Part shown: positions 545-56,875 of the stretch, piece by piece
Position numbering within the stretch: the first letter of the stretch is position 1
How the letters are laid out: every line of letters starts with the position of its first letter
Origin: Oidiodendron maius Zn
Taxonomy: Eukaryota > Ascomycota > Leotiomycetes > Myxotrichaceae
Length of the DNA stretch: 64,000 nt
Reading direction: 5' to 3'
Assembly: GCA_000827325.1 (NCBI GenBank)
Contig: KN832880.1
Coordinates: forward strand, 724,803 to 788,802
Notes under the pieces: model-generated
Databases searched by the model: none
What the model saw: the letters and a program-made list of their open reading frames with translations, nothing else
Told to the model about the DNA's origin: nothing
Translations under genes and position numbers: made by a program

Positions 545-1287
545 TCACAAAGTTGGTGACCAAGTCCAAGCACCGCCTGTCACTGCAGCAGTCTGTGATG
601 CCAATCCAGATGATGTAGAGGTGGTTTTCGCTGCTCCAGTTGCTGTTGGACCTGTGGCGGTGGTAGTCGCATTTGAAGTCATCAAGCTAGCTAATGAGCC
701 TGCAGATTTGTTCAAGTCAGTATGCTGCTACAAATTTGGAATATCTCCATTCAGAAGCATATTGTCATTTTCTGAACAGGTACAAAATCACATGCGAAGA
801 AAGTGTAGATCTCACTGCTGGCAGCGGCTGCATCCGATGACGAGTCCGCCGCTACTGCTGCAGAAATGCTAGCGGAGCCATAAACGGATAAACAATAACT
901 CTCATACAAGCTGGTGGCGGTAGAAGCGAAAGCATCAGTACTGGACTTGCAGACAGTGGCAACGCAATCGGTGAGGAAGCCTGCGGCTTCAATGGGAGCA
1001 GAGAGGCAGGCGCAGTTTTCGGTAACATCATCGCAACCGGTGGGATCAGCTAGACCGATTGGAATGAGGCAGTTGAAGACACACGAGTTTTGCGATACCA
1101 CTGCGGGGAGGGCCGTTATGGAATACGGAGGTGAATTATCGACTGAAGTGCTGGATGCAGATATGTTCGTACCCATAGATACGCCACTAGTCGTAGATGT
1201 GCTGTTTGAGCTGGAAGACGAAGCTGCCTGGACAAAGGTAGTCGCGAAGTACACGCACTGGATGAGCTTTGTTATTCGGGAGAACAT
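545..1287 (-). CDS. Secreted CFEM-domain protein (two exons)
   Basis: The protein is about 208 aa in two exons, 816-1287 and 545-699; the intron 700-815 (GTGAG...CTGCAG) keeps the frame. Residues 1-21 are a signal peptide followed by a Ser/Thr-rich stretch. A CFEM domain with eight cysteines follows (SQNSCVFNC ... GCDDVTENCACL ... DCVATVC ... SYC). The second exon encodes a Ser/Thr/Ala-rich tail, as in wall-linked or GPI-anchored family members, although the last residues are a weak GPI signal. CFEM proteins sit on the cell surface and in several fungi bind haem or iron; others are effectors or adhesins, and the sequence does not decide between these. Its start lies 652 bp downstream of the stop of the BIM1-like gene, in the same orientation. 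The fold call is strong and the ligand is unknown. Confidence 0.88.
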
Positions 1288-1939: not shown

Positions 1940-2780
1940 CTACAGGAGACAAGCTAGAAATGTTGCTGATCCAATGGCGGCAACCCATATAAATTGCCCA
2001 AGGACACCGTATGAAAGCGTGACAGTCGCAGCACCCGAGGACTTGGAAGTCGCAGAAGAGCTAGGGCTAGAAGTGGAGGAAGAAGTGGTCGTGCCAGTCG
2101 TTGTAGCGGCGGTTCCGGTGCTAGTCGCTGAGCTGCTAGTCGCCGAGCCAGTCGCGGAGACTTGAAGGCTGGATAGTAATGGATCCGACACGAATTGCGC
2201 AGTGAGCCCGGTTACGTTTGTGCAGATTGACGGAATGGAGGTAGCTGCCCCGGAAACAAAATTGACGGCAGCACACTATAATAGGAGTCATTGCCTGAGA
2301 AAGTGATCTGTTACTTATTTGGCATACCTGGTAGAGAATTCCGTCAGGTGCATCCTGGACAACACCAATAACACCTTTTGAGCCAGCCCAAGAAGCATCT
2401 ATCACGACAGTCTTTTCGCAGAAGTCACCTAGACCAGTTTGTTCAACCGCGGGGAGAAGGCTCTCCCACCCTCCCGCTGCCGTGATGTCCAACGTCGCAC
2501 GAAATAGCCAGGTTGCTTGAGGGTGGATAGACGTCTATTTGGTCAGAAAGAAATGCGGTAAGATTTTGATCATTATTACCATTGCAAGAGAGTCTCCACC
2601 AACGTGAAAGTCGGTCACATTGTCGGTGGAGAAGTCAACCGTAAAGCTTCCGCATGGCGCAGTAGCCTCCAAATTGTCATCAAAACCGATGGTGGGCGGG
2701 TAGTTAAGAAGAAAATGGGCGCTGCCCTGAGTTGCATATAACACAAATAGGCAGAAAACGATGTTCAAAAATCGTTCCAT
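1940..2780 (-). CDS. BIM1-like (LPMO-related, X325) copper-acquisition protein, GPI-anchored
   Basis: Three exons (2580-2780, 2328-2534, 1940-2275; introns 45 and 52 nt) give about 247 aa. The start at 2780 is preferred over an upstream in-frame ATG at 2804 because the signal peptide (residues 1-21) then begins directly. Cleavage after GSA leaves His22 as the new N-terminus, the histidine-brace position of this family, followed by FLLNYPPT. A second candidate metal site is DFHVGGDS. The middle exons carry the family core (TWLFRATLD ... DFCEKTVVID ... GVIGVVQ ... CAAVNF). A long Ser/Thr/Ala linker and a hydrophobic C-terminus typical of a GPI signal follow. Relatives include Cryptococcus Bim1, a surface copper-uptake factor that works with a CTR transporter and is induced when copper is scarce. 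No polysaccharide activity is expected. Strong family call. Confidence 0.9.
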
Positions 2781-4018
2781 CTCGAGATTGATGTTTGCGG
2801 CCACTGTATGACGAAAGGAGGAGGAAAGCGCGGCCGGGTGCTGATAAGGACTTTAAATGGCCATAGAAGCTTTGAAATTGATGCAGGGGATTCATGTTCA
2901 TAGCGCCTCAATACCCCTTGGAGGACAAAAAGAGAATTCGGGGTGTGTTCATAGAGAATTCTATTCCTACATAATCAATTGCATCGGTGCAAGACAAGCT
3001 CTGTCTAGCTTGCCCTCCAACCGTCTTCTCGCTCCAACCACTTGCATAAGTGATGGATATTAATGGCAGCCTCGGCAGGGGATGGAATTGCACGATGCCT
3101 AGTCCCAAATCTAGAATGGAGTGATGCTTGTCTTCCATGGTGTTTTATAGGTCGCAATCTCCTATCGAGGGGATTTGAGCAAGTTATGGCTGACTTAGCA
3201 GGGATTCTTACCGCAAAGGCGTGCCGTAGGCCACGCACGAGTTTGCGGTCTGGGAATATTACGGAGCTTTACCTTCTCAGACCCTACAGACCCCGCATCT
3301 ACTCACTTTTCCCATTTTCTACACGGGTCAGTGATTATCAATTCGGTTTCGCCATATCTACGTCTCGCCTTTGTTACGTCGTTCTTGTGTTGTTGTCAGT
3401 CTGAAACATGGGAAGGGGTGTAAGCGACGTCCCTAGAGCTCAAATACCAGCAGATATTAATTACGACTTGGAGTGAAACAGCGCCTACAAAGTAGCTCAC
3501 TAGATTCCACGACCCTTCTTCTCAACCAATGGCACAGGGCTGATCCGCAGGATTCTTTGACTTAGTGTGTTCGGATATTAAGAAGCGAACACCACGGAGA
3601 TCGATAAGTTTTCTTAAACTCGATCTCAGTTACGTTTTAATGACTGTCACGAAAGTGTACACAGATTTGGGCGAAGTTGGAAGGATGCGTTCATTCCAAG
3701 TATCTCATTTCTCAAATACTTGCGACCGCCCAGTTTGGCCATTGCTTTGATAAACAGCCCCTCTTACCAGCCTTAATGAAATAGCCCATTCTCCTCATAA
3801 AAATGCCTTCTATAATTTGCTCTTCAAAACCTTGCGTAGTCATAAATTTTCGCGACCGAGAATGCTGTCTAGACGGCGGCGCAACATGCTAGGGCGACCC
3901 CAGAACTTGACGCCAGGACAACACCCTCGATTCCATTGTTTAATTCACCGGCTAGCGCACCTTGTATGGCTGTGCCGAGGCGGATTGCACCCCCATGAAT
4001 CCCCTTAGGAGCGTCTTG
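2781..4018. other. Promoter region of BIM1-like gene and 3' flank of copper-fist gene
   Basis: No confident gene. It contains a TGAGCAAG site (3176-3183) and a TTTGCTC 7-mer (3816-3822). Minus-strand sequence 3869-4018 stays open in the frame of the copper-fist gene after its stop, so a further exon of that gene is possible there (see that entry). Confidence 0.4.
3176..3183 (-). promoter_or_regulatory. Mac1/GRISEA-like copper-response element candidate
   Basis: TGAGCAAG on the plus strand reads CTTGCTCA on the minus strand, seven of eight matches to the yeast Mac1 site TTTGCTCA. It lies about 395 bp upstream of the BIM1-like start. Found by eye, and one 8-mer alone is weak. Confidence 0.35.
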
Positions 4019-4722
4019 CTAACTCGTGGCCGTGGCTTGCCTTTGTGCCAGATGGACTGAAGGCTTCGGCTGTGTTGCTGGGTATTTGGGTACGTTATAT
4101 TGCTGTACTGGGTTATACGAAATATCAGAAGAACTAAGGAGAGGATATTGCCGTCCCGTTGCTAGCTCTTGGTTTTGTACGATGAGATGTGCTTGGTTGA
4201 GAGTTGTACCCCGTAATCTATCTCCGCTGATGCTCGAGGTCTTGCGAGTGCCTGAACGCGTCAAGGGTGTTACACTGGTTTCGGGCTTCGTAACTCGACT
4301 TTTTGTCACACGGCTCCTTCTCCGAGCTTGAACTTTGGGTCCAACTTGTGCTAGTGGCTGATTTGGCTTTCTATTCTGTCCTGGTTCGAGGTTGGGATGG
4401 GAAATAACTTAAAGAATTCCAATTAGAGACTGGAGCATATGGAGGATAAAAATGACCGTTATTTACCTCGTTCTATGAATAAAGACTTTCTCGGGTTCCC
4501 ACATTTGCAACCGCGGGTTTCTAGTGGCCGTCCTGGCTTGCGGACTGCGATGAGAATCCTATCCGTATGCGAACAAAGCGTCGCACGATGTCCACGAATG
4601 CACGGCTCACTACATCCACGTAAGCGTCTAGAAGCAAAACGATAGACGGCATAATTTTTCAGATAGAGAGATGTGAGTGGGGGTAGATACCAAGAGAATT
4701 TGCACCCGTTTATGAGGGGCAT
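4019..4722 (-). CDS. Copper-fist transcription factor (Mac1/Cuf1/GRISEA-like), short
   Basis: Three exons (4691-4722, 4467-4609, 4019-4407; introns 81 and 59 nt) give about 187 aa in one frame. The N-terminus is a clear copper fist: MPLINGCKFSCEPCIRGHR followed by ATLCSHTDR and VRKPGRPLE. The zinc ligands C-x2-C-x8-C-x-H are intact and the minor-groove (K/R)xGRP patch is present. The cysteine-rich stretch after GRPL is shorter than usual (GCKCGNPRKS). The third exon carries basic sequence ending in RKTSSISGDRLRGTTLN, resembling the conserved R-K-x-S-x-x-x-x-x-L-x-R element downstream of the fist in GRISEA-type factors. The second acceptor (TTTAAG) is weak. Another splice at GTACCC/GAGTTAG would extend the protein to about 3869. 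Family members sense copper and activate uptake genes (Mac1, GRISEA) or detoxification genes. Lying between a BIM1-like gene and a Mn-SOD, a copper-starvation role is inferred. Confidence 0.75.
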
Positions 4723-5635
4723 TTTCTTTTAAGAAACTGAAACGGTTTCTGAGGTATCTCTAGGAACCTAATAATATCAGCCAGGTAGCTGCGACTTCGT
4801 GTTAGAGTTATAGGCAATTATTTCATGCGGTAGGCTTCCCACAATTGGGTCGAAGTTGTGAATGGCTCAAATCTAGCCATATTCGGCCTACTCGATAGTA
4901 AGGAGTGGAGATCATACAGATTCAGACTGCGGGGATTGTGGATTAAGTAAATGACGTCTCACTGTTAACTGGTGCCTTTTAAAGTTGCAGAAGTAGAGCC
5001 ATGGATCAGAGCAAGTTTCCAGCCACAACGCTAGTTCGGCATAAATTGAAGATTGATAACGGGGTAAGCCGTAATCCTTTGGCAAGACAAAGACTTTTCA
5101 AAACCGTTATGCGATCCCCCGAAATCTATTGTCGCATGAAACTACAACTTCTGTAATGAATGTTAGTTATAGTGAGTAGAATGTGAATCTTAATGTATTT
5201 CTCTACATTAGACCCCATATCTCGAAGGGGCAAGTGCTGAGCAAGTTTGCGAGAGTTTCCAATCAAACCCTTAAGGCAGCAGCTCTTATCTGTTGGCGGT
5301 GAAAATTCCTACGGCTGCCAATCATGCGTCTGCCCTCTTCTACCAGGAAATATAAGACTAACCTGATCCATGTTATTCTGCACCTAGTTGCTGCGTGTCT
5401 GCCTGGCCCTCTCTTCGGCTCTTCCCTCGCAATTCACATCTCAAAATGTATGCTTCTATTGGCTAAAGGTTCAATGTCATAAGTTGTAGCAAACATGTAT
5501 ATCCCTTCCTCCTCGTCATACTTTCTGGATCGTCCCTTATGAACGTCGTCTGCGCCATGTGTAGCAAGTGTCTTTCCTCAACGAGCATGTGTAAGACTTA
5601 AAACGTCATCTAGATAGCTTTGTCTGCTGCCTTGA
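4723..5635. other. Promoter of copper-fist gene; 3' flank of SOD gene
   Basis: No confident gene. A TGAGCAAG site lies at 5238-5245. A 20-codon plus-strand frame at 5539-5601 encodes a Cys/Met-rich peptide (MNVVCAMCSKCLSSTSMCKT), preceded by a transcript-like leader but also by possible splice signals; whether it is translated is unknown. Confidence 0.35.
5238..5245 (-). promoter_or_regulatory. Mac1/GRISEA-like copper-response element candidate
   Basis: The same 8-mer (TGAGCAAG, minus strand CTTGCTCA) as at 3176-3183, here about 515 bp upstream of the copper-fist start. It could mediate autoregulation. By-eye call. Confidence 0.3.
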
Positions 5636-6346
5636 CTATAAACTAGCAGCGAGATTGCCAACAGCACCAAAGACAGTATCAATATCGCCCTCAAATCGCT
5701 TTTCGACAACGGCCCAGTTAATAACGCTCCAGATGCCAGTAACATAGTCCTTCTTGTTATTCAAGTACTGTAGATAATATGCGTGCTCCCACATATCTAT
5801 TCCAAGAAGTGGTTTTTTTCCTTTTGGTACGATATCTTGATCTTTGCTTGTTATAATTTCCAGGATGTTGGTATCGGTATCCTGCACGAGCCAGCCCCAA
5901 CCGCTGCCTTGCAAGGCAAGCAAGTTTGCCTCAAACTTGGCCTTGAAGCCATCAATGCTTCCCCAGTGCGATATGAGGGCAGCAACTAGATTTGGAGCCT
6001 GGGAGGAGGAGGGGCTAGCAGTCGTCCTAGAGGCTGGAGCGAGATTGTCCCAGAACAAGGTGTGATTGATATGTCCGCCGGCGTTGAAACGGATTGCTGC
6101 CTGGAGATGCACTTGTTCGATGAGGTTATCTGTGGATACAGCAGTCGCCTGAGACACGATGGCGTTGTTGAGGTTAGTTACATAGGCTTGGTGATGTTTG
6201 GAATGGTGAAGCGTCATGATCTGTTCGGAAATGTAGGGTTCGAGCGCCTGAGGGCCGGTTAGTTGAACGACCTCTCCCTACAAATTGATATTAACTACAT
6301 TATAGGAGTAAGGGAGTTTGGGAAGAGCGAATTTAGCAGAACTCAT
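5636..6346 (-). CDS. Manganese-type superoxide dismutase without transit peptide
   Basis: Two exons (6299-6346 and 5636-6247; intron 51 nt) give 219 aa beginning MSSAKFALPKLPYSYNALEP. Metal ligands are His30 (IMTLHHSKHHQAY), His78 (GGHINHTLFW), Asp167 and His171 (GIDMWEHAYYLQY). GSGWGWLV and the Gln in DQD before PLLGID favour the Mn rather than the Fe type. The enzyme converts superoxide to hydrogen peroxide and oxygen. The mature fold begins within a few residues of the start, so there is no mitochondrial presequence and a cytosolic location is inferred. Candida albicans Sod3 is a cytosolic Mn-SOD that replaces Cu/Zn-SOD when copper is short, a close parallel given the copper-uptake neighbours. 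The C-terminus (NLAASL) is at best a poor peroxisomal signal. Strong family call. Confidence 0.94.
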
Positions 6347-6643
6347 CTTCAATTTTGAGTATTGATAGAGGATTTAGAGACGGTAGTGAAACAAGGACTG
6401 TTGATGTGGCGAAGAAATTTGGAGGAAGCGATTTTGGGGCTCGGCAAAGCTTGAAGGAGGAAGAGGGACTGGAATACATTTCACCCCATTACGGACGTGT
6501 ACCATTAGTCAGATGTAAGGAAACTAACTTAGGTGCCAATTATATCTTTGTTGCCCAGCGTTCCTGTCTTACTTATGTTTAGCCGGACCTTGATGGCCAG
6601 ACCTTGATGGCCAAATTCAGACTCACTTCCCATTCCACTCAAA

Positions 6644-6651
6644 CTTGCTCA
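6644..6651 (+). promoter_or_regulatory. Mac1/GRISEA-like copper-response element candidate
   Basis: CTTGCTCA, one mismatch from the Mac1 site, about 300 bp upstream of the SOD start (minus strand). It is identical to the sites upstream of the BIM1-like and copper-fist genes. Confidence 0.35.
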
Positions 6652-6817
6652 AAACTCCGCACCTCATTCGAAGAGAAAGCAAATCCCCTAGACAGTTTAG
6701 GAAATAACAAAAGAGTGTCACTGGGTGACAGCAGAGACGAAATCGTCATCTGACGGAATATATTAAAAAGCTACTTCGGTTGACCTGTTCCCTGTCCTTC
6801 ATTCTCCGATACTTTAA

Positions 6818-6824
6818 GTGCTCA
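6818..6824 (+). promoter_or_regulatory. GRISEA-like copper-response element candidate
   Basis: GTGCTCA matches seven of the eight bases of the Podospora GRISEA site TGTGCTCA. It lies about 130 bp before the start of the unknown gene at 6954 and 470 bp before the SOD start. Confidence 0.3.
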
Positions 6825-6953
6825 CGAAAGCTCCTCCGCCTGCCACGCTACCATAACTTGCAATTTCTTTGGTTTCTTGGGCCCTCTTAGTAGTGCACTT
6901 TTATCTACTTTGCAACATCACGATCGGGGGTCTTCCTTCACCTGCAGTGAGCA

Positions 6954-7473
6954 ATGTGTGGAGACAGCCATCTTCCACCAACACCGTCTCTTGGAGATGC
7001 AGTCGCCGTGATTCGGCTTCAGCCCCAGCTTGGTGCAATAACCTCTATGCCTGAAAGTAGCTGGAGGCTTCAGCTGTCTAATCGCCTTGTGACGGAAGAG
7101 GAGGATAATACAAAACTCATGTATGAGGCGAAACCAGACTGGTGGTGCGACGATGTGAAGTTGCGGATCCAGTATGTAACCATAGTTCATGTCAGGAATC
7201 GTGTTGTGTTTCAAAGCTTTGATGAGTATATAGAGGGGTAAATTTCTGAATAAATCTAATTTCTTTGCTAGTTTATACGGTACTCCTTCAAATACGAGAG
7301 AACCGCAAAATCCAGTACTCCAGGAGATGCCTATAAGATTTGCCAAGTCCAATTCTAGCTCTGTTGGACGCAAGCTTGAACTCCACGTTGGTGAAGACGG
7401 CGTTATTGGCCGTATGATGTCAGTCGAAGTTGAAGGACGGGTTATTGGGGAAGGAGTTATAGGTCGACTGTGA
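6954..7473 (+). CDS. Small hypothetical protein in the copper neighbourhood
   Basis: I do not recognise this protein. Exon 6954-7225 joins exon 7272-7473 across a 46-nt intron (GTATAT ... CTAAT branch ... GCTAG), giving about 157 aa starting MCGDSHLPPTP. The first exon has an acidic, Trp-rich segment (EEEDNTKLMYEAKPDWWCDD) followed by alternating hydrophobic residues (LRIQYVTIVHVRNRVVFQSF). The second exon reads like real protein throughout (GTPSNTREPQNPVLQEMP ... GRKLELHVGEDGVIGRMMSVEVEG), which is why it is called. There is no signal peptide or membrane span. The start is uncertain and a further 5' exon is possible. It lies between the SOD and CTR genes with a GTGCTCA site upstream, so co-regulation with them is an inference to test. 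Confidence 0.42.
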
Positions 7474-8010
7474 TTGCACAGTTATGCTATTACCTCTAAT
7501 GCAAAATTACAATATCTCAAGTAGCATAGGACTGATCGTGCCTGCGTACAAGTTTCGCTTCAAAAGAGTATTAAAATGCATATTTACGCGGCTTAATATG
7601 TGCTTAATCTCTATAGCCAAACACAGAGATATAGAATTGAACAGCTCCAAGGCTTTTCCACCTAATCATTGAGTGATCGCAAGTGATTATTTTCATCCTT
7701 ACTTTGTCACCCTTCTGCACATGAATGGGAAATGGGACTGCAGTGATAAAACCCAGCCATTTCAGGCGGCCCGATGGAGAACATTTGAGCACGTTTTGAG
7801 ACGTGGTGACTAGTAACAAGCGGCCATCTAGTGATCTATATGGTCCAGACCCACCACCTCTTTTACAGAGGATGGAAATTAGGCGATACAAATGCTGATG
7901 CTCACAAAGTCCTGTTACTCAAAAAGGAGTTGTACTGAGTAAAGCACCCTCGGCGAGACACAATTTTATTATTTCTTCTCGATACCGCCGATAATCGGCT
8001 CTTAATAGAT
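7474..8010. other. Promoter region of the CTR copper transporter
   Basis: No gene seen. A GTGCTCA site on the minus strand (7786-7792) and a TGCTCA core (7899-7904) lie about 220 and 107 bp before the CTR start. Confidence 0.45.
7786..7792 (-). promoter_or_regulatory. GRISEA-like copper-response element candidate
   Basis: TGAGCAC on the plus strand is GTGCTCA on the minus strand, matching seven bases of TGTGCTCA, about 220 bp upstream of the CTR start. In Podospora this element controls a CTR-type gene. Confidence 0.38.
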
Positions 8011-8753
8011 ATGGAATCGATGGACGACAACACAATGGCCTCGCACGAGCCAGCCGCGTCGTTTGACAAAATGGCTGGAATGAGCATGTCGACAGCCTTT
8101 TCTACAGGAACTCGCGTTACTCTCTTCTTCACGGAATGGACGACAACCACGATAGCTGCATATGTTGCAACGATAATTTGCCTCTTCTTCCTGACGCTTT
8201 TGAATCGCTTCCTTGGAGCCTTAAAATTCCAGACCGAAAGAGCTTGGCTAGACCAGACTCAAAAGAGGAATACGCTACTTCTTCCGCCAGGAGGCCGTAA
8301 TACGCGTCCATTCTTCAAGGCCAAATCAAGCCCAATTCCTCCATACATGATCAGGGAAAATGATTCAGAGTGCGATCCGTTGACCGTCCAAATGAACGGA
8401 GAATCTGCTAATGTCTGGTCTCCGAAAGAGCAAGGCCCGGTGTCTCGGCGTATGACCCTTCGCTGGATGCTCGGAGATTGGCAGCCAAGTGGGCGCTGGA
8501 ATATAAAGAAGGATGGACTGCGAGCTATTTTAGAGTTTACGAGAGCCTTTATTGGATATATTCTGTATGTCACTGCCGTCTCTGGATCAAGTTTTGTGCA
8601 ACTAATATACTGAATAGAATGTTAGCTGTGATGACACTAAACTTGGGAATCTTCTTCACTGTCCTTGGAGGTATCTTAGTTGGTGAGCTGATATTTGGTC
8701 GATACATGCAGGGATCCGGAGGATGGCAGGAAGGTGCTTGTCATGAAGGATGA
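8011..8753 (+). CDS. CTR-family copper transporter
   Basis: Two exons (8011-8564, 8618-8753; intron 53 nt, GTATGT...AATAG) give about 229 aa. The short N-terminal ectodomain has Met motifs (MESMDDNTM ... MAGMSMS). TM1 is roughly residues 50-75 (TIAAYVATIICLFFLTLLNRF), followed by a long cytosolic loop of about 90 residues. TM2 carries the copper-selective MxxxM motif created exactly at the splice junction (GYILMLAVMTLN), and TM3 carries GxxxG (GGILVGELIFG). CTR proteins are trimeric importers of Cu(I) in the plasma or vacuolar membrane, fed by surface reductases and, in Cryptococcus, by Bim1. The large loop resembles Ctr2/Ctr3-like fungal members; which membrane it uses cannot be read from the sequence. 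It faces the SOD and regulator genes across a motif-containing promoter. Confidence 0.94.
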
Positions 8754-9535: not shown

Positions 9536-11185
9536 ATGCGTCTCATTAACACGGCTACTCTCGAGTTTGAAGAATATTTCGGGTCGTGCATACCCAAATA
9601 CGCAATCCTGTCGCACGCCTGGGAAAAGGAAGAAGTCTCATTTCAGGACTGGGCGGACCGTAGACAACGGGCCACAAAGGCCGGATACCGCAAGATACTT
9701 CTGGCCTGCGACCAGGCTAAGAGGGATCGGCTCCAATATCTCTGGGTCGACACGAACTGTATCGACAAATCTAGCTCCGCCGAGTTAGCAGAGGCCATAA
9801 ATTCTATGTTTGCTTGGTATCGCGACTCGGTCATCTGCTACGCATATTTGGAGGATTATCCGCAGCAAAGTTTTATCAAAAGCCGCTGGTTTACTCGCGG
9901 CTGGACCCTGCAGGAACTTTTGGCCCCGAGAGAGGTGGTCTTTTTCTCTAAGGACTGGACACAATTGGGCTGCAGGGAGGATAGGGTGGGGGACATCTCA
10001 GAAATAACAGGCATCGAAAAAGGCTACCTCGATGGATCCTTGCGGCTGAATTCCGCCAGTGTTGCTTGCCGGATGAGTTGGGTTTCTCGCCGAACCACTA
10101 CTAGGATCGAGGATATGGCCTACTGCATGCTGGGAATCTTCGATATCAACATTCCGCTGCTGTATGGGGAAGGATCTAAGGCCTTTATACGATTGCAGGA
10201 AGAAATTATTCGTGTATCTAATGATCAGTCGATATTCTGTTGGACATGGAATGATGACGTTCCGCAGGGCTGGGTTAGCATGCTGGCCCCATCACCATCC
10301 ACTTTTTCAGGCTCAGCCGACTATTGGGATGTTCGACAAGGGGGGAACAACAAGCCACTCTCCTACTCAATTACGAACGCTGGATTACACATCCGGCTCC
10401 CTATAGTCCGGACTTGGTCCTATTACCTCGCCGTTCTGAGCGTCCAACGCAGTGACAGATGCCGCGCTGGTATTCCTTTGAAAGGTCCCCTTGGAAATGG
10501 GGTGTTGGAAAGGCTGCCGTTTCCGAATAGTCCCGTCGACTTTCCAGAGTTTGGTAGTAGTGAGCCAGAGCACGAGCTATATATCCCGATAACAAGCATC
10601 AGAAGATATACTGAATATTTTGACCCCCTGCCTAATTCAAATTATTGCGGGCTGCTTGTCTTCTTCAACAACATAGAACACCTTGTCAATTTTCGAAGCT
10701 ACACTGCTCGGAGGTTCAATCCACTGACAAGCCTCTTTCTATTTGATAGGGATGAAGCCATTTCGGGAGGAATCCTTCGATTCGAGAGATCGAATTCCGA
10801 GGAATTCATGGTTTTCTTCGGAGCCTCTCGGAAGGTTGTAGGCCACACAGGCAACACAGGCAACACAGGCGTCAGGATTCATTGGTTCGCTAAATCAATG
10901 CCTACGCGGTGCCTGGAACTGAGTGATATAATGTTGGCCAAGAAGTTAGATCATATGAAGAGATGTGTCGTGATAGGTCAGAGTCATTGCAACGATTGTT
11001 ATGAACGCAACTCTACCGATGTCGCTTTGACATTGTTCAATATAGCGCCCATTCCTTTTAATGAGAGTATTGCAGCTGTCAGGATTTCGCTAATTCAGAA
11101 TGGGGACTCAGAGGACTATAGGATTTCAAAAGAAAGCGATTACGAATCAGATATCGCAGAGGTTGGGGGCGGTAACCATGGGTAA
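9536..11185 (+). CDS. HET-domain (heterokaryon incompatibility) protein, single exon
   Basis: A 549-aa uninterrupted protein beginning MRLINTATLEFEEYFG, the standard start of the HET-E/HET-D type. HET-domain landmarks are in order: YAILSHAWEKEEVSF, LWVDTNCIDKSSSAELAEAINSM, RWFTRGWTLQELLAP, and SWVSRRTTTRIEDMAYCMLGIFDINIPLLYGEGSKAFIRLQEEI, followed by a roughly 300-residue C-terminal region of the kind found in NACHT-less HET proteins. HET domains trigger regulated cell death in response to non-self or to a partner receptor. Near residue 440 a 9-bp unit is repeated three times (GNTGNTG), a short slippage-prone tract. There are no ankyrin or WD repeats. It looks intact. The partner or trigger is unknown. 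Confidence 0.93.
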   Translation: MRLINTATLEFEEYFGSCIPKYAILSHAWEKEEVSFQDWADRRQRATKAGYRKILLACDQAKRDRLQYLWVDTNCIDKSSSAELAEAINSMFAWYRDSVICYAYLEDYPQQSFIKSRWFTRGWTLQELLAPREVVFFSKDWTQLGCREDRVGDISEITGIEKGYLDGSLRLNSASVACRMSWVSRRTTTRIEDMAYCMLGIFDINIPLLYGEGSKAFIRLQEEIIRVSNDQSIFCWTWNDDVPQGWVSMLAPSPSTFSGSADYWDVRQGGNNKPLSYSITNAGLHIRLPIVRTWSYYLAVLSVQRSDRCRAGIPLKGPLGNGVLERLPFPNSPVDFPEFGSSEPEHELYIPITSIRRYTEYFDPLPNSNYCGLLVFFNNIEHLVNFRSYTARRFNPLTSLFLFDRDEAISGGILRFERSNSEEFMVFFGASRKVVGHTGNTGNTGVRIHWFAKSMPTRCLELSDIMLAKKLDHMKRCVVIGQSHCNDCYERNSTDVALTLFNIAPIPFNESIAAVRISLIQNGDSEDYRISKESDYESDIAEVGGGNHG

Positions 11186-11759: not shown

Positions 11760-12371
11760 CTAGCTAATAGCTACATAAAATCCAATTGGACATGTCTCCG
11801 AGCTTTGCAAATAGGTAAAAGTAGAATCAGGACTACAAAGCATCCCACTAACTTCCAACCCCGTCATCCCCGTCTGAATACCACACCCACCCACGTTGAT
11901 GGTATATGCATTTCCAGGACTCAATATAGCGGGCGGACTTGGAGGGCTCGGACCGGGAGGTGGTTGATTAGCATACGTGGTTTCCAGAGTCGCACCACTC
12001 CCAAACGCATACCCCGTGAACGTGAAGTGGCCCCCGCCATTGTAAACATAAGGCGAGTAAGTCTCGTGGTGATCAGGGAACAAGAACTCGAGGGTGCAGG
12101 TTTTCCCGACCGCAGATGGAGGGATTTCGAGGTTGAAGATGGTGCAGAAGTCATTCGGCGTTATAATGGGAAATTGCGTGGATCCAAACCGGATGTCGGG
12201 AAATTTGGCGCTGACGGGGACCATGAGGGTAGGAGAGAGGTAACCTGGCGGGAGTGTACCACCCGATGGGCAGGACTCGAGATGGCGCTCGCTGATAACT
12301 TCGAGGGGCATGGCCATGGGGCTGGCAATTGCGCTGCCTAGAAGAGCCACGATTGAAATCACGGACTTCAT
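11760..12371 (-). CDS. Secreted But2-type (ubiquitin-3-binding-like C-terminal domain) wall protein
   Basis: Single exon, 203 aa. Residues 1-17 are a signal peptide (MKSVISIVALLGSAIAS). The remainder resembles the But2 C-terminal domain found in many secreted fungal proteins: TLMVPVSAKFPDIRFGSTQFPIITPNDFCTIFNLEIP ... TCTLEFLFPDH ... FTFTGYAFGSGATLETTY, then a Pro-rich bridge (QPPPGPSPPSPPA) and a second beta-rich block with paired cysteines (VGGCGIQTGMTGLEVSGMLCSPDS ... ETCPIGFYVAIS). The domain name comes from fission-yeast But2, but in filamentous fungi these are secreted, often GPI- or wall-associated proteins of unknown function. No GPI tail is visible. Moderately strong family call. Confidence 0.75.
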   Translation of the reverse strand: MKSVISIVALLGSAIASPMAMPLEVISERHLESCPSGGTLPPGYLSPTLMVPVSAKFPDIRFGSTQFPIITPNDFCTIFNLEIPPSAVGKTCTLEFLFPDHHETYSPYVYNGGGHFTFTGYAFGSGATLETTYANQPPPGPSPPSPPAILSPGNAYTINVGGCGIQTGMTGLEVSGMLCSPDSTFTYLQSSETCPIGFYVAIS

Positions 12372-15300
12372 GCTGAAAGATTGCGCGATAAAAAAACTTT
12401 TAGAACAGGATTGTGACTTTTCTAATGCAGATGAGACAGCTAGAAAGAATAGGTGTGGGTGCAGAGCTTCAGCCTTTTATATTCTCAGGGGCCACGTTAG
12501 TCTTCCCAGCCTGGCAGTAAGCGATCTACAATGTGCGGACTTGGAATGAGATGAGTTTTCGTTTTTTTTATCAGCTCACAAAGAGTAGCAAATCAGGAAT
12601 ACAGGATATGATCAGATGAATCAGGGTTATTTTTATTTGGCTCGCAGCTTCGTGAGCGTGCCGAGTTTTGTGACAGTTGTCCAAGCCTCCGGATTTTGGT
12701 GGGGAAGTCCGAAATCTTAAGCAAGGGGAGATGCAGTTACTTGTCTGCAAACGAGTTAGTGCGTACTTCTATTGACTCCTCCGATATATGGAAGCCTTGT
12801 TAATGGCTGTGTCTCGGACATAGTTTGAGAATGATGTTCCGGCTGGCCTTCGCACTTTGCTGACTTCAACATTCCAGCCTGCCTTTACATTTCTGCACCC
12901 TCTGACATCTGCTCATGGGGTTCTCGCGCCCTATTATACATTTTATATCAACTACAGGGCCAAATATTCTCGAAAAATAGATTAAATAACAAGTTCAAAT
13001 ACAACATATATTTATACTAAGTTTTGAGCTGAGACTCATGGAGGATTACAAGTACGTAGATCACGTGACCCCCCTGAAAACCGGGTACACAAGTTGTGGT
13101 CGAATAATAGGGTGAAACTTAATTCAATTTATTAGATTGTGAGTAACAGTCTGACTACCCAACACTGTATGTCTTTAGCTGGTGCTTTTATATCCTTACG
13201 GTTATAGGAGTCGTAAGCCCCTTATATATCCCTTGATGCATATGCACTTTTGTATGTGTCACAACCCGTCTGATCTGCCTTGTTATGTTCATATTGTATA
13301 CGCCTTCTTAATATGCAGACTTTGAGGATATACTTTTATTCTACAGATGCCTAAGGCGTTAATAATGTCAATAGATAATTGCTTTATTATCAGAGAAAAT
13401 TGAGAATCACAATACTACACCTGAGTCAATATTCCCACGATTTGTTGATGCATCTAGACAGCCACTGGATAAAATTGGACTTATACATGGCGCTGTTTGG
13501 CGTTGGAGTTATCCATATAGTCCTAGAGCGCGGAGTTGCTGCCCAGAAATGGTGGTCTTGAATTGCAGTTATTCCTTCGAATACTCCACTCAGGACAGTA
13601 GACCAAAATATGGAACGAGTGTTATATGATACGGCACATCTCTCCACAAGAAGACGATTCCAATTTTAAAAGGCATTCAGGAATTGCTGAAATACGTACT
13701 ATCTCGCGAGCTCATACCTAGTACAGAGCTGATGCCCCTTAGCGCTAGCACATCGATTACAGTTCTAGGAGAGAAAGAATCAAAATCTACTTACTACACT
13801 GGGCAGGGATGTATCTACCTTCACTTACCTGTCTATCGAGTAGTTCCATTACATGTGGGTGTACAGAGCCACTTTCGAAACGCTCTCCAGTCTTGGTTCC
13901 AATATGTCCAATTGACGTTCATAAATATAGCATGGATAAGGGACCTGCCTCTGGCTACACACGACCCTCCTTGCCCAGCCACAATATTTGATACGAGAAA
14001 CTTACGGCGTTCGCCGTATTTCTTGCACGGTAGCGCAAATCTTAAATTGATTCCTGATCCGCGTTGTACGATCTTTCCACTCAACATCTGTACAATGAAT
14101 AACACCATCAAGTTCCTTTGTAGAAGGTTGCTTCCTATGAATGTTGACTGTTCGTGATGCGGTGGCGCGATTTTTATATCATATCTTCATGTTTCCTCGG
14201 CTTATTCTTCTCCCTCTTGGTCCTTATTCCGGGCTGCCAGAGGAGCATCTTGCCAGATGTCGCAATAGCCACGGTCAGTGTTCCGCTTATCCATTCCCTT
14301 TGCCCATGAAGCGTCTGGTTAACTGTATGCACAGTACTGGTATCATGGTAACTACAGATCCTCGAGCCTGCCGGTGAGGTGAAGATCACAACGCGATAGA
14401 TTGGAGGCAATTTCGACGAGTGGTTCTTCTCGGTGCATTATCTCTCCATCTCCGCAAGTTACGTAGGAGGGGAAGATTCTCTTGACTACATTCATCTCGA
14501 CTGCTCGCTTCGACCGGGAAGCTTTATATTTAGAGAAGACGATAAATTTATTCTAGACTACTCGTCGGTTGGAGACTCTTATCCTATTATTCCGCGGTAT
14601 GATATTAATAGTTTCGATTTGCATCCTCCCCTTGCTATGCTAGTGCTAAGTATAATGTTCAGTGTTCTAAGTGTAACATCTTTATTATACGAACTTTTCA
14701 CACGGTGACAGTCAAGATTAGTTATTATTGGGCCGATCGATCTAGTCTCAGTATGCGCTATTGGAGTATGGTATAGTCCTTGGCCGTCCACCTCTTAATT
14801 TCTAACAATAGACAGGCCGCCTCAACATATCTTCTTATATCTTCATCGATTGTTAGTGTAATTATCCTACGAAGTGGGTACGAAGAAGAAGGATATAGTC
14901 TGGGCGAGTCACTTCAAAGGGTTAAGTGTAGGCTAATCTAAGAGCATTATAAAGCTACGGCCCTGCTTTTGGATGGAAATAACTAACAGATGGTATTAGT
15001 GAGCCGCAGTGGGCTTCATGTATCTTGCATTCCTAATCAAGCTATGTGATATTATAATACAGAGGGAAAAAAGAAGGAGGTTATTGCACACCGGGCAAAT
15101 TTAATATACGAGAGAGATACCTAGATTGACCTTATCCTTAATTAGCCTCACTATCACTCAATGGCCCAAATGACTGAACTTCCGATTCCCATCCCGACGC
15201 TGATACGTCGTCTTCAGAACCCAATCCTTACTTAACGGTAAAAAGTCAAAGGAGGCAGCACTCGCGCTCGGAATGGAGGATAATATTTAGTAAGATAAGC

Positions 15301-52248: not shown

Positions 52249-52364
52249 GTGATGTTGCTACTCTCCCACCGGCAACTCCAGTCGTCTGATCTCCAGCATT
52301 TTTTCCCATCGAAGTTCTTCTGCTGTCAAAGTCTGGCAAATTAGCAAATCCGAAGAACTACAAC

Positions 52365-55300
52365 ATGGAGGTCAATCGCGACCCCGAGAAAGCGATGTAC
52401 CAGGCGAGTTCGCTCGGAAAGCCCTCCGGTCAATCTCCCTCCCCAATCGCAGACCCTATCGTCAACTCCAGCGCGGAGCAGTCAGACGACGAATCCGGCC
52501 AAAAGACCGACCCCCGAGACATCTCACAATGGCCCATCACTCCAGATATACTACAAATACGACAACGTAACGAGACTAACGGTGGGAAATCGAAGAAGCT
52601 GGGTGTGACATGGCAGAACCTCACAGTGAAGGGCATCAGCAGTGATGCGCTTTACAACGAAAATGTTCTCTCTCAATTCAACCCATTCGGGAAGGGCAGT
52701 AAGAGCCTACCTCTGAAGACTATTATCGACAACTCTTCTGGATGTGTCAAACCCGGTGAGATGTTGCTTGTTCTTGGAAATCCAGGAGCCGGATGCACAA
52801 CACTGCTTAGCGTTCTATCAAACCACAGAAATGGCTTCGCAGAAATTACTGGCGACGTCTCGTTCGGTTCCATGACCAGTCAAGAAGCCAAACAATATCG
52901 TGGTCAGATCATCATGAACACAGAAGAGGAGATCTTCTTTCCAGCTCTTTCAGTTGGTGACACCATCGACTTCGCCACACGTTTGAAGGTGCCTTTCCAC
53001 CTGCCACCGGACATCAAGAACGAGGAGGAGTACGCCCAAATATACAAAGAATTCCTCTTGAAGTCTCTCGGTATCACACACACAAAGGATACCAAGGTCG
53101 GGAATGAGTTCATTCGTGGTGTTTCGGGTGGCGAGCGCAAGCGAGTGTCCATTCTCGAATGCCTTGCGACTAGAGGCAGTGTCTTCTCCTGGGATAACTC
53201 CACTCGTGGTCTCGACGCGAGCACTGCGCTAGATTGGACGAAAGCCATGCGCGCCATGACAGATATTCTTGGTCTCACTACAATTGCCAGTCTGTACCAA
53301 GCTGGTAATGGCATCTACGAGCAGTTCGACAAGATTCTGATTCTCGACAACGGCAAGCAGATCTTTTACGGGCCTCGAGATGAAGCTGTGCCATACATGG
53401 AGGATCTTGGCTTCCTATGCGACCCTGCAGCCAACAAGTCAGATTTCCTTACGAGCGTATCGGTGCCTGCTGTACGCACAATTGCCCCAGACTTTGAGGA
53501 CCGATTTCCTCGATCAACCGAGGAGCTGCTCGCTGCTTATAACAACTCGCCCATCAAGCCAAGGATGATGGCTGAGCTCGACTACCCCAATAGCCCCGAA
53601 GCTCAGCAGAATACGGCGGACTTCAAGGAACAGGAGGCTCAAGACAAGCACAAGAACCTCCCAAAGAAAGCTGCGGAGTCCGCAGGATATTTCCATCAGG
53701 TGCAGACAGCTACCATACGCCAATTTCAGATCCTCTGGGGCGACAAGCAAACTCTGTTCATCAAGCAAGCCACAACTATCGTTCAGGCGGTGATCGGTGG
53801 CTCACTGTTCTATAATGCTCCGGACAACACGGCGGGCTTGTTCATCAAGGGAGGCTCACTCTTCTTCTCTCTACTATATCCTACCTTCATCGCTCTCGCC
53901 GAGGTTACGGATTCGTTCGTCGGCCGACCCGTCTTAGCCAAACACCGAGACTTCGCTCTCCACCATCCATCTGCCTTTGTCTTCGCCCAGGTCATTACCG
54001 ACATCCCGATCATGCTCTTCCAAATCTCGCACTTTGGAATTGTGCTGTACTTCATGACTGGATTCCAGTACACCGCCCAGGCTTTCTTCATCTTCTGGCT
54101 CATCAACTTGATCTCGGCCCTGGCTATGACACAGCTGTTCAGGTTCATCGGTGCCGCTTTCCCGAACTTCGACGCAGCAACTAAAGCTTCTGGATTCACC
54201 ATCGTCGCTGCCTTCACATATGCAGGATACATGATTCCCAAGCCCGACATGCACCCTTGGTTCGTTTGGTTCTTCTGGATCGACCCTATGGCCTACGCGT
54301 TCGAAGCATTGCTCGCGAACGAGTTCCACGACCAGGTGATTCCTTGTGTGGGCCCATTCCTGGTTCCAAATGGTGAAGGATACAGCCCCGAAACAGGAGG
54401 CGGGCAAGCATGTACCGGCGTCCGTGGTGCGCCTCCTGGAGCAACCAGCGTTACTGGTGACCAATACCTGGCTTCCATGTCCTTCAGCCACAGCAACCTT
54501 TGGCACAACTTCGGCATTCTGTGCGCCTGGTACGTTTTCTTCGTGGCAATGACCGCCTTCTTCACTTCCAGATGGAAGCAGATGGGCGAAGGTGGTCGCG
54601 GCCTCCTCATCCCCCGTGAGAAGCAGAAGAAGGTACCTAAGGCCGTGGTTGCGGATGAGGAATCCCAAGCTGTCGAGAAGCCATCCGAGAACTCCGGCTC
54701 CGATTCCGAGAAGTCTGACGCAGCCATCGACAAGCAGCTCGTCAACAATACATCGGTCTTTACCTGGAAGAATCTGACTTACACCGTCAAAACGCCGCAT
54801 GGAGATCGTCTTCTTCTCGACAACGTTCAAGGATTTGTCAAGCCCGGTACGCTCGGTGCTCTTATGGGATCTTCAGGTGTAAGTGCACCAGCAATGCGAT
54901 TGACAGATGGATATTTGCTAACATTTTCACTCAGGCCGGAAAGACTACACTGCTCGACGTTCTAGCTCAACGCAAGACTGATGGTACCATTCATGGCTCC
55001 GTTCTGGTCGATGGCCGCCCGCTCCCTGTGTCCTTCCAACGATCTGCTGGCTACGTCGAACAGATGGATGTCCACGAGTCATTGTCCACGGTACGCGAGG
55101 CTTTGGAATTCTCTGCTCTTCTTCGTCAGAACCGTGAAATTCCCCGCGAGGAGAAGCTCCGCTATGTGGACACGATCGTCAAGCTTCTACAGTTGGAAGA
55201 TCTCGAGCACACCCTCATCGGTCGCCCTGGTGCCGGTCTTTCTGTCGAACAGCGCAAGCGTAAGTCTGAATCCATCGAACAGAGTCGAGACAGACGCTAA

Positions 55301-56875
55301 CAACTTATCAGGTCTCACAATTGGTGTTGAGCTCGTAGCTAAGCCCAGTATTTTGATCTTCCTCGACGAACCTACTTCTGGTCTCGATGGCCAAGCTGCA
55401 AACAACACGGTACGCTTCTTGCGCAAACTCGCGGAAGTCGGACAAGCTGTCCTCGTCACGATTCATCAGCCATCGGCCGACCTCTTTGCCCAATTCGACA
55501 CCCTCCTCCTACTGGCGAAGGGTGGCAAGACCGTATACTTTGGCGATATCGGCCATCATGCAAGGACCGTCAAGAAATACTTCGCTGATCATGGCGCACC
55601 GTGCCCCCGAGAGGCCAACCCTGCTGAGCACATGATTGAAGTCGTATCAGGAAGTCTTTCTAAGGGCAAGGACTGGAACCAAGTCTGGCTCAACTCGCCA
55701 GAACACGAGAAGATTACTCAAGAGCTTGACACTCTTGTCGCCGATGCTGCCGCCAAACCGCCTGGAACTGTCGACGATGGCCATCAATTCGCAGCGCCCA
55801 TGTGGGAGCAGGTAAAGCTTGTCACGCACCGCATGAACATCTCCTTATTCCGCAACACCGAGTACATCAACAACAAGCTCATCTTGCATATACTCCTGTC
55901 TCTTTACAACGGCTTTTCGTTCTGGTCGATTGGTAACAGCGTCAGCGATCTCCAGCAACGCCTCTTCACGGTCTTCAGTTTTCTGTTTGTCGCCCCCGGT
56001 CTCATCTCCCAGCTTCAGCCTATCTTCATCGATCGTCGCAACGTGTATGAGACGCGCGAGAAGAAGAGTAAGACCTACCACTGGGTGCCATTCGTCACTG
56101 GCTTGATCGTTTCTGAGCTGCCCTACCTGGTCGTCTGCGGAGTGTTGTACTTTGTGTGTTGGTACTGGACTGCTGGATTGCCAAATGATACCAAGTGGGC
56201 AGGCAGCACATTTTTCGTCGCAGTAAGTTCTCTCTTCTTTGGTTGACTCCTCTCTCCAAACTAACAAACCGTCTAGATGTTTTACGAGATGTTGTACACC
56301 GGTATTGGACAATCGATCGCCGCGTACGCTCCCAACGCAACCTTTGCATCTCTCGTCAACCCGCTGGTCATCACCACCCTCGTATCATTCTGCGGTGTCT
56401 TCGTTCCTTACTCCCAGATCACGGCGTTCTGGAGATACTGGTAGGCCTCATATGACTATCAACACCCACGAGATCAATACTAACATCACATTTTAGGATC
56501 TACTACCTCGATCCCTTCAACTACCTCTTCGGCGCCTTCCTCACCTTCACCACCTTCTCCGTCGATATCACTTGCGAACGGGGCGAGCTTGCGGTCTTCA
56601 ATCCTCCTGCGAACGAGACATGTGGCGGCTATCTCTCCACCTATCAGCAAGGCATGGGACGTGGCACGAACCTTCTGAACCCAGGCGCTACCGAGAACTG
56701 CGAGGTGTGCCGATACACTACTGGACAAGACTACTTGAAGACACTCAACTTAAACAAAGAGTACTACGGCTGGAGGAATGCGGGGCTGGTTGTATTGTGG
56801 GCTGGAGTGTTCTACGCCCTGGTGTTCTTGATGATGAAGTTGCGAACCAAGGCGACGAAGAGGGCGTCTGCGTAG
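52365..56875 (+). CDS. PDR-type (ABCG) ABC transporter
   Basis: Five exons (52365-54878, 54935-55259, 55312-56222, 56277-56440, 56497-56875; introns 50-56 nt) give 1430 aa with the (NBD-TMD)x2 order of fungal PDR pumps. NBD1 has the family's degenerate Walker [12 protein letters not shown] (Cys for Lys), signature [11 protein letters not shown] and Walker [18 protein letters not shown]2 has canonical [14 protein letters not shown] formed across intron 1, signature [17 protein letters not shown] and [14 protein letters not shown]. Each half is followed by about six spans, and the large extracellular loop before the C-terminal span has paired cysteines ([24 protein letters not shown]). These plasma-membrane pumps export drugs, azoles or plant or self-made toxins. 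Its place beside a GliT-like gene suggests export of a metabolite. It is complete, and its promoter carries a minisatellite. Confidence 0.96.

Follow-up and report, generated by a model that had tools for sequence, protein, structure and literature searches.

Whether copper capture, copper uptake and a copper-sparing antioxidant enzyme are linked at one place in a fungal genome, and which protein would switch them on, is the question raised by a 6.8 kb locus of Oidiodendron maius Zn. In this locus a BIM1-like gene, a copper-fist gene, a gene for a presequence-less Fe/Mn-type superoxide dismutase (SOD), a gene that we call X and a CTR copper transporter gene lie side by side, within an analysed stretch of 64,000 nucleotides (the window). 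The best reading is that the cluster is a physically clustered Mac1 regulon plus a secondary copper fist, that is, a compact copper-starvation locus whose linked genes would be driven through a shared promoter element by the full-length Mac1-type protein encoded elsewhere in the genome (C6:1091531), and we put the probability of this at roughly 70%.

When the hand-spliced gene models were scored with Pfam, all four named genes were far above the cut-off (E 5.5e-34 to 4.3e-18), in agreement with the preliminary description, which had placed them within 7 kb. All introns in the exon maps of BIM1, the copper fist, SOD and CTR are GT..AG, and all five gene models (Table 1) read through without a stop. 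Gene X, the fifth member, had gone unnamed in the preliminary description; the other four are of kinds tied to copper shortage or its control. The 45.9 Mb genome holds at least five CTR, at least five BIM1, at least four Fe/Mn-SOD and at least five copper-fist loci, and with random independent placement about 7e-9 quadruples within 7 kb would be expected, a figure to be read with the fact that the locus was picked afterwards. By located positions, there is no second place in the genome where two of the four families are 10 kb or less apart. A HET-domain gene lies directly downstream of the cluster. A minus-strand gene at about 545-1285, for an 8-cysteine secreted protein that is CFEM-like by eye, was considered as a sixth member and left out. 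Its protein had no Pfam match up to E 0.1 and was not among the 19 matches of a genome-wide CFEM search, its upstream sequence has no copy of the element even when one mismatch is allowed, and its model, for which no exon map was found, is uncertain.

Table 1. Genes and promoter elements of the cluster (positions are those of the window)
Feature	Position	Strand	Exons	Family or location
BIM1-like (X325 type) secreted protein, 247 aa, 3 exons	1940..2780	-	2780-2580, 2534-2328, 2275-1940	PF20238
CuRE-like element TTGAGCAAGTT	3175..3185	+		~395 bp upstream of BIM1 start codon
Short copper-fist protein, 187 aa, 3 exons	4019..4722	-	4722-4691, 4609-4467, 4407-4019	PF00649
CuRE-like element CTGAGCAAGTT, one mismatch	5237..5247	+		~515 bp upstream of copper-fist start codon
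Fe/Mn-type superoxide dismutase without mitochondrial presequence, 219 aa, 2 exons	5636..6346	-	6346-6299, 6247-5636	PF00081, PF02777
CuRE-like element TTGAGCAAGTT	6642..6652	-		divergent SOD/X promoter, ~300 bp from both start codons
Gene X, 139 aa, 2 exons	6954..7473	+	6954-7171, 7272-7473	exon map; without Pfam family
CuRE-like element TTGAGCACGTT	7785..7795	+		~220 bp upstream of CTR start codon
CTR copper transporter, 229 aa (model), 2 exons	8011..8753	+	8011-8564, 8618-8753	PF04145

The match of the BIM1-like protein to BIM1-like_dom covers the whole profile (1-140 of 140; E 2.9e-33, 115.7 bits, cut-off 27). By eye, its signal peptide ends in A and is followed by His22 as the mature N-terminus, and its C-terminus is a hydrophobic GPI-type tail. 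Neither His22 nor His71 varies among 14 aligned sequences, 13 of which were drawn from 421 matches, and this points to the free histidine-brace N-terminus that had been proposed. One solved relative, 6ibh, was aligned over residues 70-137 only (E 4.6e-4). The protein itself is missing among the best 120 of the 421 matches listed from a set of 5.8 billion proteins, and its expression is therefore without support; the best-scoring match listed shares 61% identity with it across 97% of the query. In the SOD both domains were found (Sod_Fe_N, E 7e-32; Sod_Fe_C, E 5.5e-34). Its N-terminus, MSSAKFALPKLPYSYN, has no presequence and its first residues line up with the beginning of solved chains (for 6dqy, query 1-209 to chain 1-205), which supports the earlier proposal that a mitochondrial presequence is absent. 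Its closest solved chains are superoxide dismutases, and those named for a metal among the 60 listed are Mn-SODs and one Mn/Fe. We infer that the enzyme is cytosolic and uses manganese. A second presequence-less SOD, on C2, is 60% identical to it, and a paralogue on C4 has an extended N-terminus by eye. The CTR (Ctr, E 7.2e-28, 98.5 bits) is annotated as OIDMADRAFT_20079 with 221 aa, and its expected MxxxM and GxxxG motifs are read directly in the sequence as MLAVM and GILVG. For gene X no Pfam family was found up to E 10 and no second copy in this genome, a single place being matched; its alignment with the N-terminal part of the protein P0041 shows 65% identity over 127 aa, and a structure model of P0041 with gene X has a mean pLDDT of 36.

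An 11-bp element, TTGAGCAMGTT, is common to the cluster promoters and is compatible with the published Mac1 site, which from ChIP-seq in Fusarium oxysporum is DHNTGCTCANNN with a TGCTCA core (PMC11563359); the MacA site is TGTGCTCA (PMC6981102). The copper-fist gene is preceded by a further GAGCAAGTT stretch at 5009 and CTR by a second TGCTCA core at 7899. Over the four cluster promoter stretches (3,052 bp) this core was observed 7 times versus 1.8 expected, and the promoters carry the core that marks the CuRE-driven genes of the Mac1 regulon. Copies of TGAGCAAG at 28.2-29.6 kb lie inside ankyrin-repeat-like coding sequence and were dropped. Genome-wide there are 66 exact copies of TTGAGCAMGTT in 45.9 Mb, and 45 of the reversed control; three of the 66 are inside the cluster, within 4.6 kb. 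Since the element was derived from the cluster alone, the enrichment of these three is not independent, as the same copies helped to define it. A held-out set of seven other CTR/BIM1 loci was compared with controls, namely seven other SOD/copper-fist loci and two flank stretches. Exact copies were found at 2 of the 7 held-out loci and at none of the SOD/copper-fist loci (0/7) or flank stretches (0/2). One is about 350 bp upstream of a CTR gene on C7. The other, on C1, belongs to a divergent BIM1 pair, at distances of about 156 bp and 541 bp upstream of the two genes; a second C1 copy is about 320 bp before a FRE reductase gene adjoining this pair. The Poisson probability of two or more copies in the 8 kb of held-out promoter is about 7e-5, and, judged by position, all 45 reversed-pattern sites are more than 10 kb away from these copper genes. 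What counts against the regulon reading is that an exact copy is missing at 5 of the 7 held-out loci and that 60 of the 66 copies are away from the located copper genes. The reversed control also has one pair within 5 kb (on C2, 176 bp apart). An element pair on C30, 8.4 kb apart, was tried as a copper locus and rejected: 10 translated frames gave SRF-TF only and no copper family.

If the cluster is a Mac1 regulon, then when copper is short the full-length Mac1/GRISEA-type protein would bind the TTGAGCAMGTT elements and turn on BIM1 for extracellular copper capture, CTR for copper uptake and the cytosolic Mn-SOD, which would stand in for the copper-needing Cu/Zn-SOD. It would also turn on gene X and the short copper fist, most likely a copper-blind binder of the same elements that would tune the output as a competitor or an auxiliary activator. 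Low-copper genes that are scattered in the other fungi compared would here be gathered under one cis element. When copper is withheld from Pseudogymnoascus destructans, both CTR genes, two of the three BIM1-like genes (BLP2 and BLP3) and the cytosolic Mn-SOD (SOD3) rise (PMC12113139). The direct targets of Mac1 in F. oxysporum include ctr and fre genes and sod3, a cytosolic Mn-SOD (PMC11563359), and a Histoplasma Fe/Mn-type SOD is under Mac1 or low-copper control (PMC9040751). The Podospora SOD PaSod2 responds to copper deficiency and not to GRISEA (PMC3495915), and we have counted this behaviour against the regulon reading. Of the linkage in one locus that had been proposed, capture by BIM1, import by CTR and the copper-sparing SOD stand, and the promoters have a Mac1-type element in common; what is not supported is the copper fist as its Mac1/GRISEA switch.

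The local copper-fist protein matches Copper-fist (E 4.3e-18, 65 bits) and was aligned to AMT1 1co4 (E 7.5e-9). Its zinc module is intact, C11, C14, C23 and H25 being invariant in 14 aligned copper-fist sequences, and its GRP motif is kept. It has MPxING, CEPCIRGHR and VRKPGRPL in common with the Mac1-type protein on C6, whereas the Ace1-like paralogues have KKGRP. Like Mac1, GRISEA and MacA it has an N-terminal copper fist, and unlike them it has no C-terminal cysteine-rich motifs; its length is 187 aa versus 511 aa for F. oxysporum Mac1 (PMC11563359). The pattern C.C.{2,6}C.C occurs twice in the C6 protein and not at all in the local protein or in the three minus-strand frames of 2780-4740; a single CxC was found in the local protein. 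Judged from these motifs, it is not a Mac1/GRISEA orthologue but a DNA-binding protein of Mac1 lineage that lacks the cysteine-rich domain for copper sensing, probably secondary and copper-blind. Seven short contigs encode a protein (P0001) identical to the spliced model, which hints at a spliced transcript. The structure model has low confidence (mean pLDDT 51), and its tail is without predicted structure. Besides the protein itself there are 26 matches to short copper fists in other Leotiomycetes, 18 of them 240-280 aa long, and the Helotiales relatives have Q/P-rich tails. No description of short copper fists without a copper-sensing domain was found in the literature search.

Fungal clusters often carry pathway-specific regulators, and the preliminary description had taken this protein as a dedicated activator that at low copper switches on BIM1, SOD and CTR. 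Its adjacency to these genes, its intact zinc ligands and GRP motif, its Mac1-like VRKPGRPL and the apparent spliced transcript all fit such a role, as does the finding that low-copper growth through Cryptococcus Cuf1 survived the loss of Mac1-like cysteine motifs (PMC13343922). It is nevertheless unlikely, because a protein without the C-terminal cysteine-rich motifs has no known means of copper sensing, the genome has a full Mac1-type protein and genes on other contigs use the same element. In addition, the stretch with the GRPLxxC cysteine, which is kept in 25 of 27 copper-fist matches, is deleted here and in the relative P0002. It is possible, and we propose it only tentatively, that the local protein is a putative copper-blind competitor which, once induced by Mac1, sits on the same sites and dampens the response as negative feedback. 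It consists of a DNA-binding module without a sensing domain and its own gene is preceded by the one-mismatch element and the additional stretch at 5009. In Aspergillus fumigatus auto-inhibition and copper binding reside in the C-terminal domain (PMC6981102), and the absence of this domain should leave binding unregulated. However, N-terminal cysteines are reported to be essential for DNA binding by MacA (PMC6981102), and with one of them lost, binding by the local protein may be weak or absent; also, the Helotiales relatives have Q/P-rich tails that could act as activators of transcription. Rather doubtful is a self-limiting regulon, in which Mac1 would drive BIM1, SOD, X and CTR along with an internal copper-blind, DNA-binding-only relative that competes at the elements and caps import. 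If this were true, the short copper fists of other Leotiomycetes would form a family of modulators of this type.

The preliminary description had named a gene order without conservation in relatives as evidence against it. In all 7 Helotiales genomes that were checkable by locus tags or contig sizes, the short copper fist and the nearest BIM1 listed appear unlinked, which by that standard speaks against the preliminary description. In Cudoniella the tags g4438 (copper fist) and g4426 (BIM1) appear linked, but the contigs differ in length (48,497 and 48,687); the closeness of the tags is probably due to contigs being numbered by size, and the pair was counted as unlinked; a second Cudoniella copper fist (g14467) was excluded from the count. 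Cadophora gregata (ONS95 and ONS96 tags, two assemblies) and Rhynchosporium (two proteins from different species) were left out of the seven. What is kept is the X-CTR pair, which is adjacent in Pseudogymnoascus VKM F-3557 too and is annotated there as one protein, so that a conserved neighbourhood is seen for this pair only, in one Pseudogymnoascus strain. The lack of linkage in Helotiales, the HET-domain gene downstream and the lost cysteine would also fit a recent chance arrangement with a decaying copper fist. We regard this as improbable, given the element common to BIM1, SOD/X and CTR, the retained X-CTR pair, the five stop-free models and P0002, which is 88% identical to the local copper fist with the same length of 187 aa and the same deletion.

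Physical clustering of Mac1 target genes has already been published (PMC11563359), and of the claim that this combination had not been described as a cluster it can be said that no description was found among the openly licensed papers searched. As in the F. oxysporum Mac1 regulon, low-copper families are in small clusters (there ctr3-fre9-FOXG_07771, fre12-ctr1b, FOXG_18820-sod3 and crm) with TGCTCA-core sites; in the available part of that account, however, none was found that joins BIM1, SOD and CTR or has a copper-fist gene, and mac1 itself has a distant tag, FOXG_03227, unlike the copper fist inside the O. maius cluster (PMC11563359). In P. destructans BLP2 and FRE have adjacent tags (VC83_03095, VC83_03096) and both are up when copper is withheld, which matches the FRE-BIM1 pairing on O. 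maius C1 (PMC12113139). In contrast to the O. maius cluster, its CTR, SOD3 and BLP genes have distant tags, and its CRC is opine-metallophore-like and without BIM1, CTR or copper fist (PMC12113139, PMC13208438). The crm cluster of A. fumigatus (crmA-D) is MacA-dependent, induced by copper starvation and carries the predicted copper transporter CrmD, but is built round an isocyanide synthase (PMC5974471). The cluster CTR is related to CrmD-named CTRs, being 44% and 42% identical to crmD-named proteins of two other Aspergillus species. Isocyanide synthase (PF05141) matches in the genome are only on C1, C14 and C22 and none is on C11, the contig of the cluster, and such a link for this CTR was rejected. 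Cryptococcus Cbi1/Bim1 belongs to the same BIM1 family, is induced at low copper and works there with Ctr1; no cluster with SOD or a copper fist was found described in the available parts of these papers (PMC9258870, PMC7924993), and Cryptococcus has a single regulator, Cuf1, for high and low copper (PMC13343922).

A title cited in PMC11928401 points to earlier work on the Cu/Zn-SOD of O. maius Zn under zinc stress. The locus brings to light short copper fists without a copper-sensing domain and a conserved, family-less gene X beside CTR. O. maius Zn is transformable and gene deletion is feasible in it. In a clustered Mac1 regulon, a single locus and a single cis element would unite copper capture by BIM1, copper import and the exchange of a Cu-SOD for a Mn-SOD, and the low-copper programme of this metal-tolerant, mycorrhizal fungus of soil and roots would be testable as a unit.

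At the cluster of O. maius Zn (window ~1940-8753), hand-spliced models of the BIM1-like, copper-fist, SOD and CTR genes each gave a clear Pfam match and had GT..AG at the exon borders, which bears out the four genes named in the preliminary description. The CTR is the annotated protein OIDMADRAFT_20079 of this strain (100% identity over 97% of the model). With a threshold of E 10, a fifth gene, X, had no match in Pfam; in the genome (45.9 Mb, 58 contigs; C1, C2 etc. below) a search for further copies hit only its place in the cluster. Profile searches of the 45.9-Mb genome, whose counts are lower bounds because only the best candidates are scored, gave at least 5 copper-fist, 6 Ctr (in 5 loci), 5 BIM1 and 4 Fe/Mn-SOD C-domain matches. 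By chance alone, about 7e-9 quadruples would be expected within 7 kb, a value that assumes independent random placement and concerns a locus chosen after the fact. The SOD on C2, with 60% identity to the cluster SOD, also lacks a presequence, so the cluster copy comes on top of another presequence-less SOD; the C4 SOD has an extended, presequence-like N-terminus and the C3 SOD is a distant relative.

Genes of the cluster, its surroundings and other loci of the genome (window positions unless a contig is named)
Feature	Position	Strand	Remark
BIM1		-	cluster
Copper fist		-	cluster
SOD		-	cluster
Gene X	6954-7473	+	cluster
CTR		+	cluster
Secreted serine-rich protein	545-1285	-	8-cysteine CFEM-like spacing; adjoins BIM1; no Pfam match, no element; exon model uncertain
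HET-domain gene	9541-11185		directly downstream of CTR
But2-domain protein	11763-12476	-	secreted-looking; PF09792, E 2e-32
Second HET-like gene	~29.3-32.0 kb		then ankyrin-like repeats with masked stretch (by eye)
PDR/CDR-type ABC transporter	52290-56246	+	Pfam on 52290-54962 only
Second copper locus (L025)	C1:5449500-5459499		FRE reductase gene, two divergent BIM1 genes, two exact elements
Isocyanide synthase (PF05141)	C14:124403-125313
Isocyanide synthase (PF05141)	C1:451881-452798
Isocyanide synthase (PF05141)	C22:234704-235627

An 11-bp element, TTGAGCAMGTT (M = A/C), was found by eye and then by script to be common to the BIM1, SOD/X and CTR promoters, and the copper-fist promoter carries CTGAGCAAGTT. 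The pattern, set from the cluster alone, has 66 copies genome-wide, 3 of them in the cluster, compared to 45 copies of the reversed pattern. The sixteen 10-kb stretches checked cover 7 CTR/BIM1 loci outside the cluster, of which 2 have exact copies, 7 SOD or copper-fist loci, of which none does, and two pieces to the left of the window, again without any. The C7 CTR has the element about 350 bp ahead of its start codon, and at the second copper locus one copy lies between the BIM1 genes and another about 320 bp ahead of the adjoining FRE gene, a neighbourhood that matches the adjacent tags of BLP2 and a FRE in P. destructans (PMC12113139). This FRE is the only one of the 25 FRE-domain rows listed with an exact copy beside it, and there was none within 30 kb of the three isocyanide-synthase loci. 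For the promoters that played no part in setting the pattern, the Poisson probability of at least two copies in their 8 kb is about 7e-5. Among the 66, copies no more than 5 kb apart occur in the two copper clusters only; when copies were placed uniformly in simulations, 1.2% of runs had at least three such gaps and 0.2% had any triple within 5 kb. The reversed pattern, too, has one pair of near copies, on C2 at a distance of 176 bp. The core, TGCTCA, is shared with two published motifs: DHNTGCTCANNN, from ChIP-seq of F. oxysporum Mac1 (PMC11563359), and the MacA element TGTGCTCA (PMC6981102). The cluster is real, with a shared regulatory element that matches the literature.

Of the gene order whose conservation in relatives the preliminary description had proposed to look for, the X-CTR pair is the part seen elsewhere, in one Pseudogymnoascus strain. 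In P0041 (V490_06180, a 364-aa annotated protein of Pseudogymnoascus sp. VKM F-3557) the first 127 residues have 65% identity to X and residues 174-331 form a Ctr domain, which places X beside CTR in that strain as well. The copper fist and the nearest listed BIM1 lie apart, judged by tags or source-contig sizes, in all seven species that have both as named matches and could be checked in this way (Cadophora sp. M221, Cadophora sp. MPI-SDFR-AT-0126, Drepanopeziza brunnea monogermtubi, Hyaloscypha variabilis, Stipitochalara longipes, Acephala macrosclerotiorum and Cudoniella acicularis). Since this comparison covers the best 120 of 421 BIM1 matches and uses contig sizes given per protein cluster, the copper fist of these species may still have another BIM1 next to it. 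The cluster BIM1 protein itself was absent among those best 120, the top-scoring of which has 61% identity over 97% of the query. Pseudogymnoascus was not among the named copper-fist matches, and the named entries of the 78 CTR matches include no genus that has a short copper fist among its named proteins; many matches are nameless.

The proposal that the cluster is run by its own Mac1/GRISEA-type regulator was not supported, as the local copper fist is short and has no C.C.{2,6}C.C stretch and the full Mac1-type gene is on C6. That gene has two such stretches by pattern scan and a one-mismatch element about 0.75 kb ahead of its start codon; by eye it is Mac1/GRISEA-type, those on C7 and C21 are Ace1-like and that on C18 is divergent. 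In the 187-aa local model C11, C14, C23, H25 and GRP are retained, and there is a single CxC. A protein search with it gave 27 matches, itself included, and 18 of the other 26 are 240-280 aa; only 0.55-1.75 times the query length was admitted, a range outside which full Mac1 proteins fall, so the absence of long matches carries no weight. By look-up O. maius is a leotiomycete (Myxotrichaceae) and the named matches from Acephala, Cudoniella, Stipitochalara and Amorphotheca are Helotiales; we take the other named genera to be leotiomycete. After GRP a single CxC was found in each of the 27 and a C.C.{2,6}C.C stretch in none, some of the other 26 being fragments. The stretch holding the GRPLxxC cysteine is deleted in O. 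maius and its 88% relative P0002, and the cysteine is kept in the other 25. P0003-P0027 are short Leotiomycetes copper fists without Mac1-type C-terminal motifs, and most of the longer aligned ones have a C-terminal RSQYI..QD..W stretch that is absent in O. maius. P0001 is exactly the spliced model and comes from 7 contigs, each of at most 1,648 bases; given the two introns of the gene, this suggests that the contigs are transcripts.

In MacA the C-terminal domain binds copper and is auto-inhibitory, while DNA binding needs the N-terminal cysteines (PMC6981102); for these reasons the short copper fist is likely a copper-blind DNA binder, and it is possibly a weak or non-binder. The Mac1-like cysteine motifs of C. 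neoformans Cuf1 are dispensable for low-copper growth (PMC13343922), and a protein that lacks such motifs may therefore still activate. In the openly licensed literature we recognised no description of short or truncated copper fists or of the BIM1, copper-fist, SOD and CTR combination as a cluster, and a term search of the main text of the O. maius comparative-genomics paper (PMC11928401) found no mention of CTR, BIM1 or "gene cluster".

Related low-copper responses are described in other fungi. In P. destructans, withholding copper raises CTR1a, CTR1b, BLP2, BLP3, three FRE genes and SOD3, with little change in BLP1 (PMC12113139), and there are protein-level data on this response (PMC13208438). 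A Fe/Mn-type SOD of Histoplasma is induced by Mac1 (PMC9040751) and A. fumigatus crmA-D are largely MacA-dependent (PMC5974471), but in Podospora GRISEA does not target PaSod2 (PMC3495915), which counts against a general rule. In F. oxysporum, sod3, ctr, fre and crm genes are among the targets of Mac1, and five small clusters hold most of the targets (PMC11563359). The best reading of the O. maius cluster is a Mac1 regulon whose genes are grouped physically and which includes an extra, short copper fist, rather than a cluster under a Mac1 of its own.
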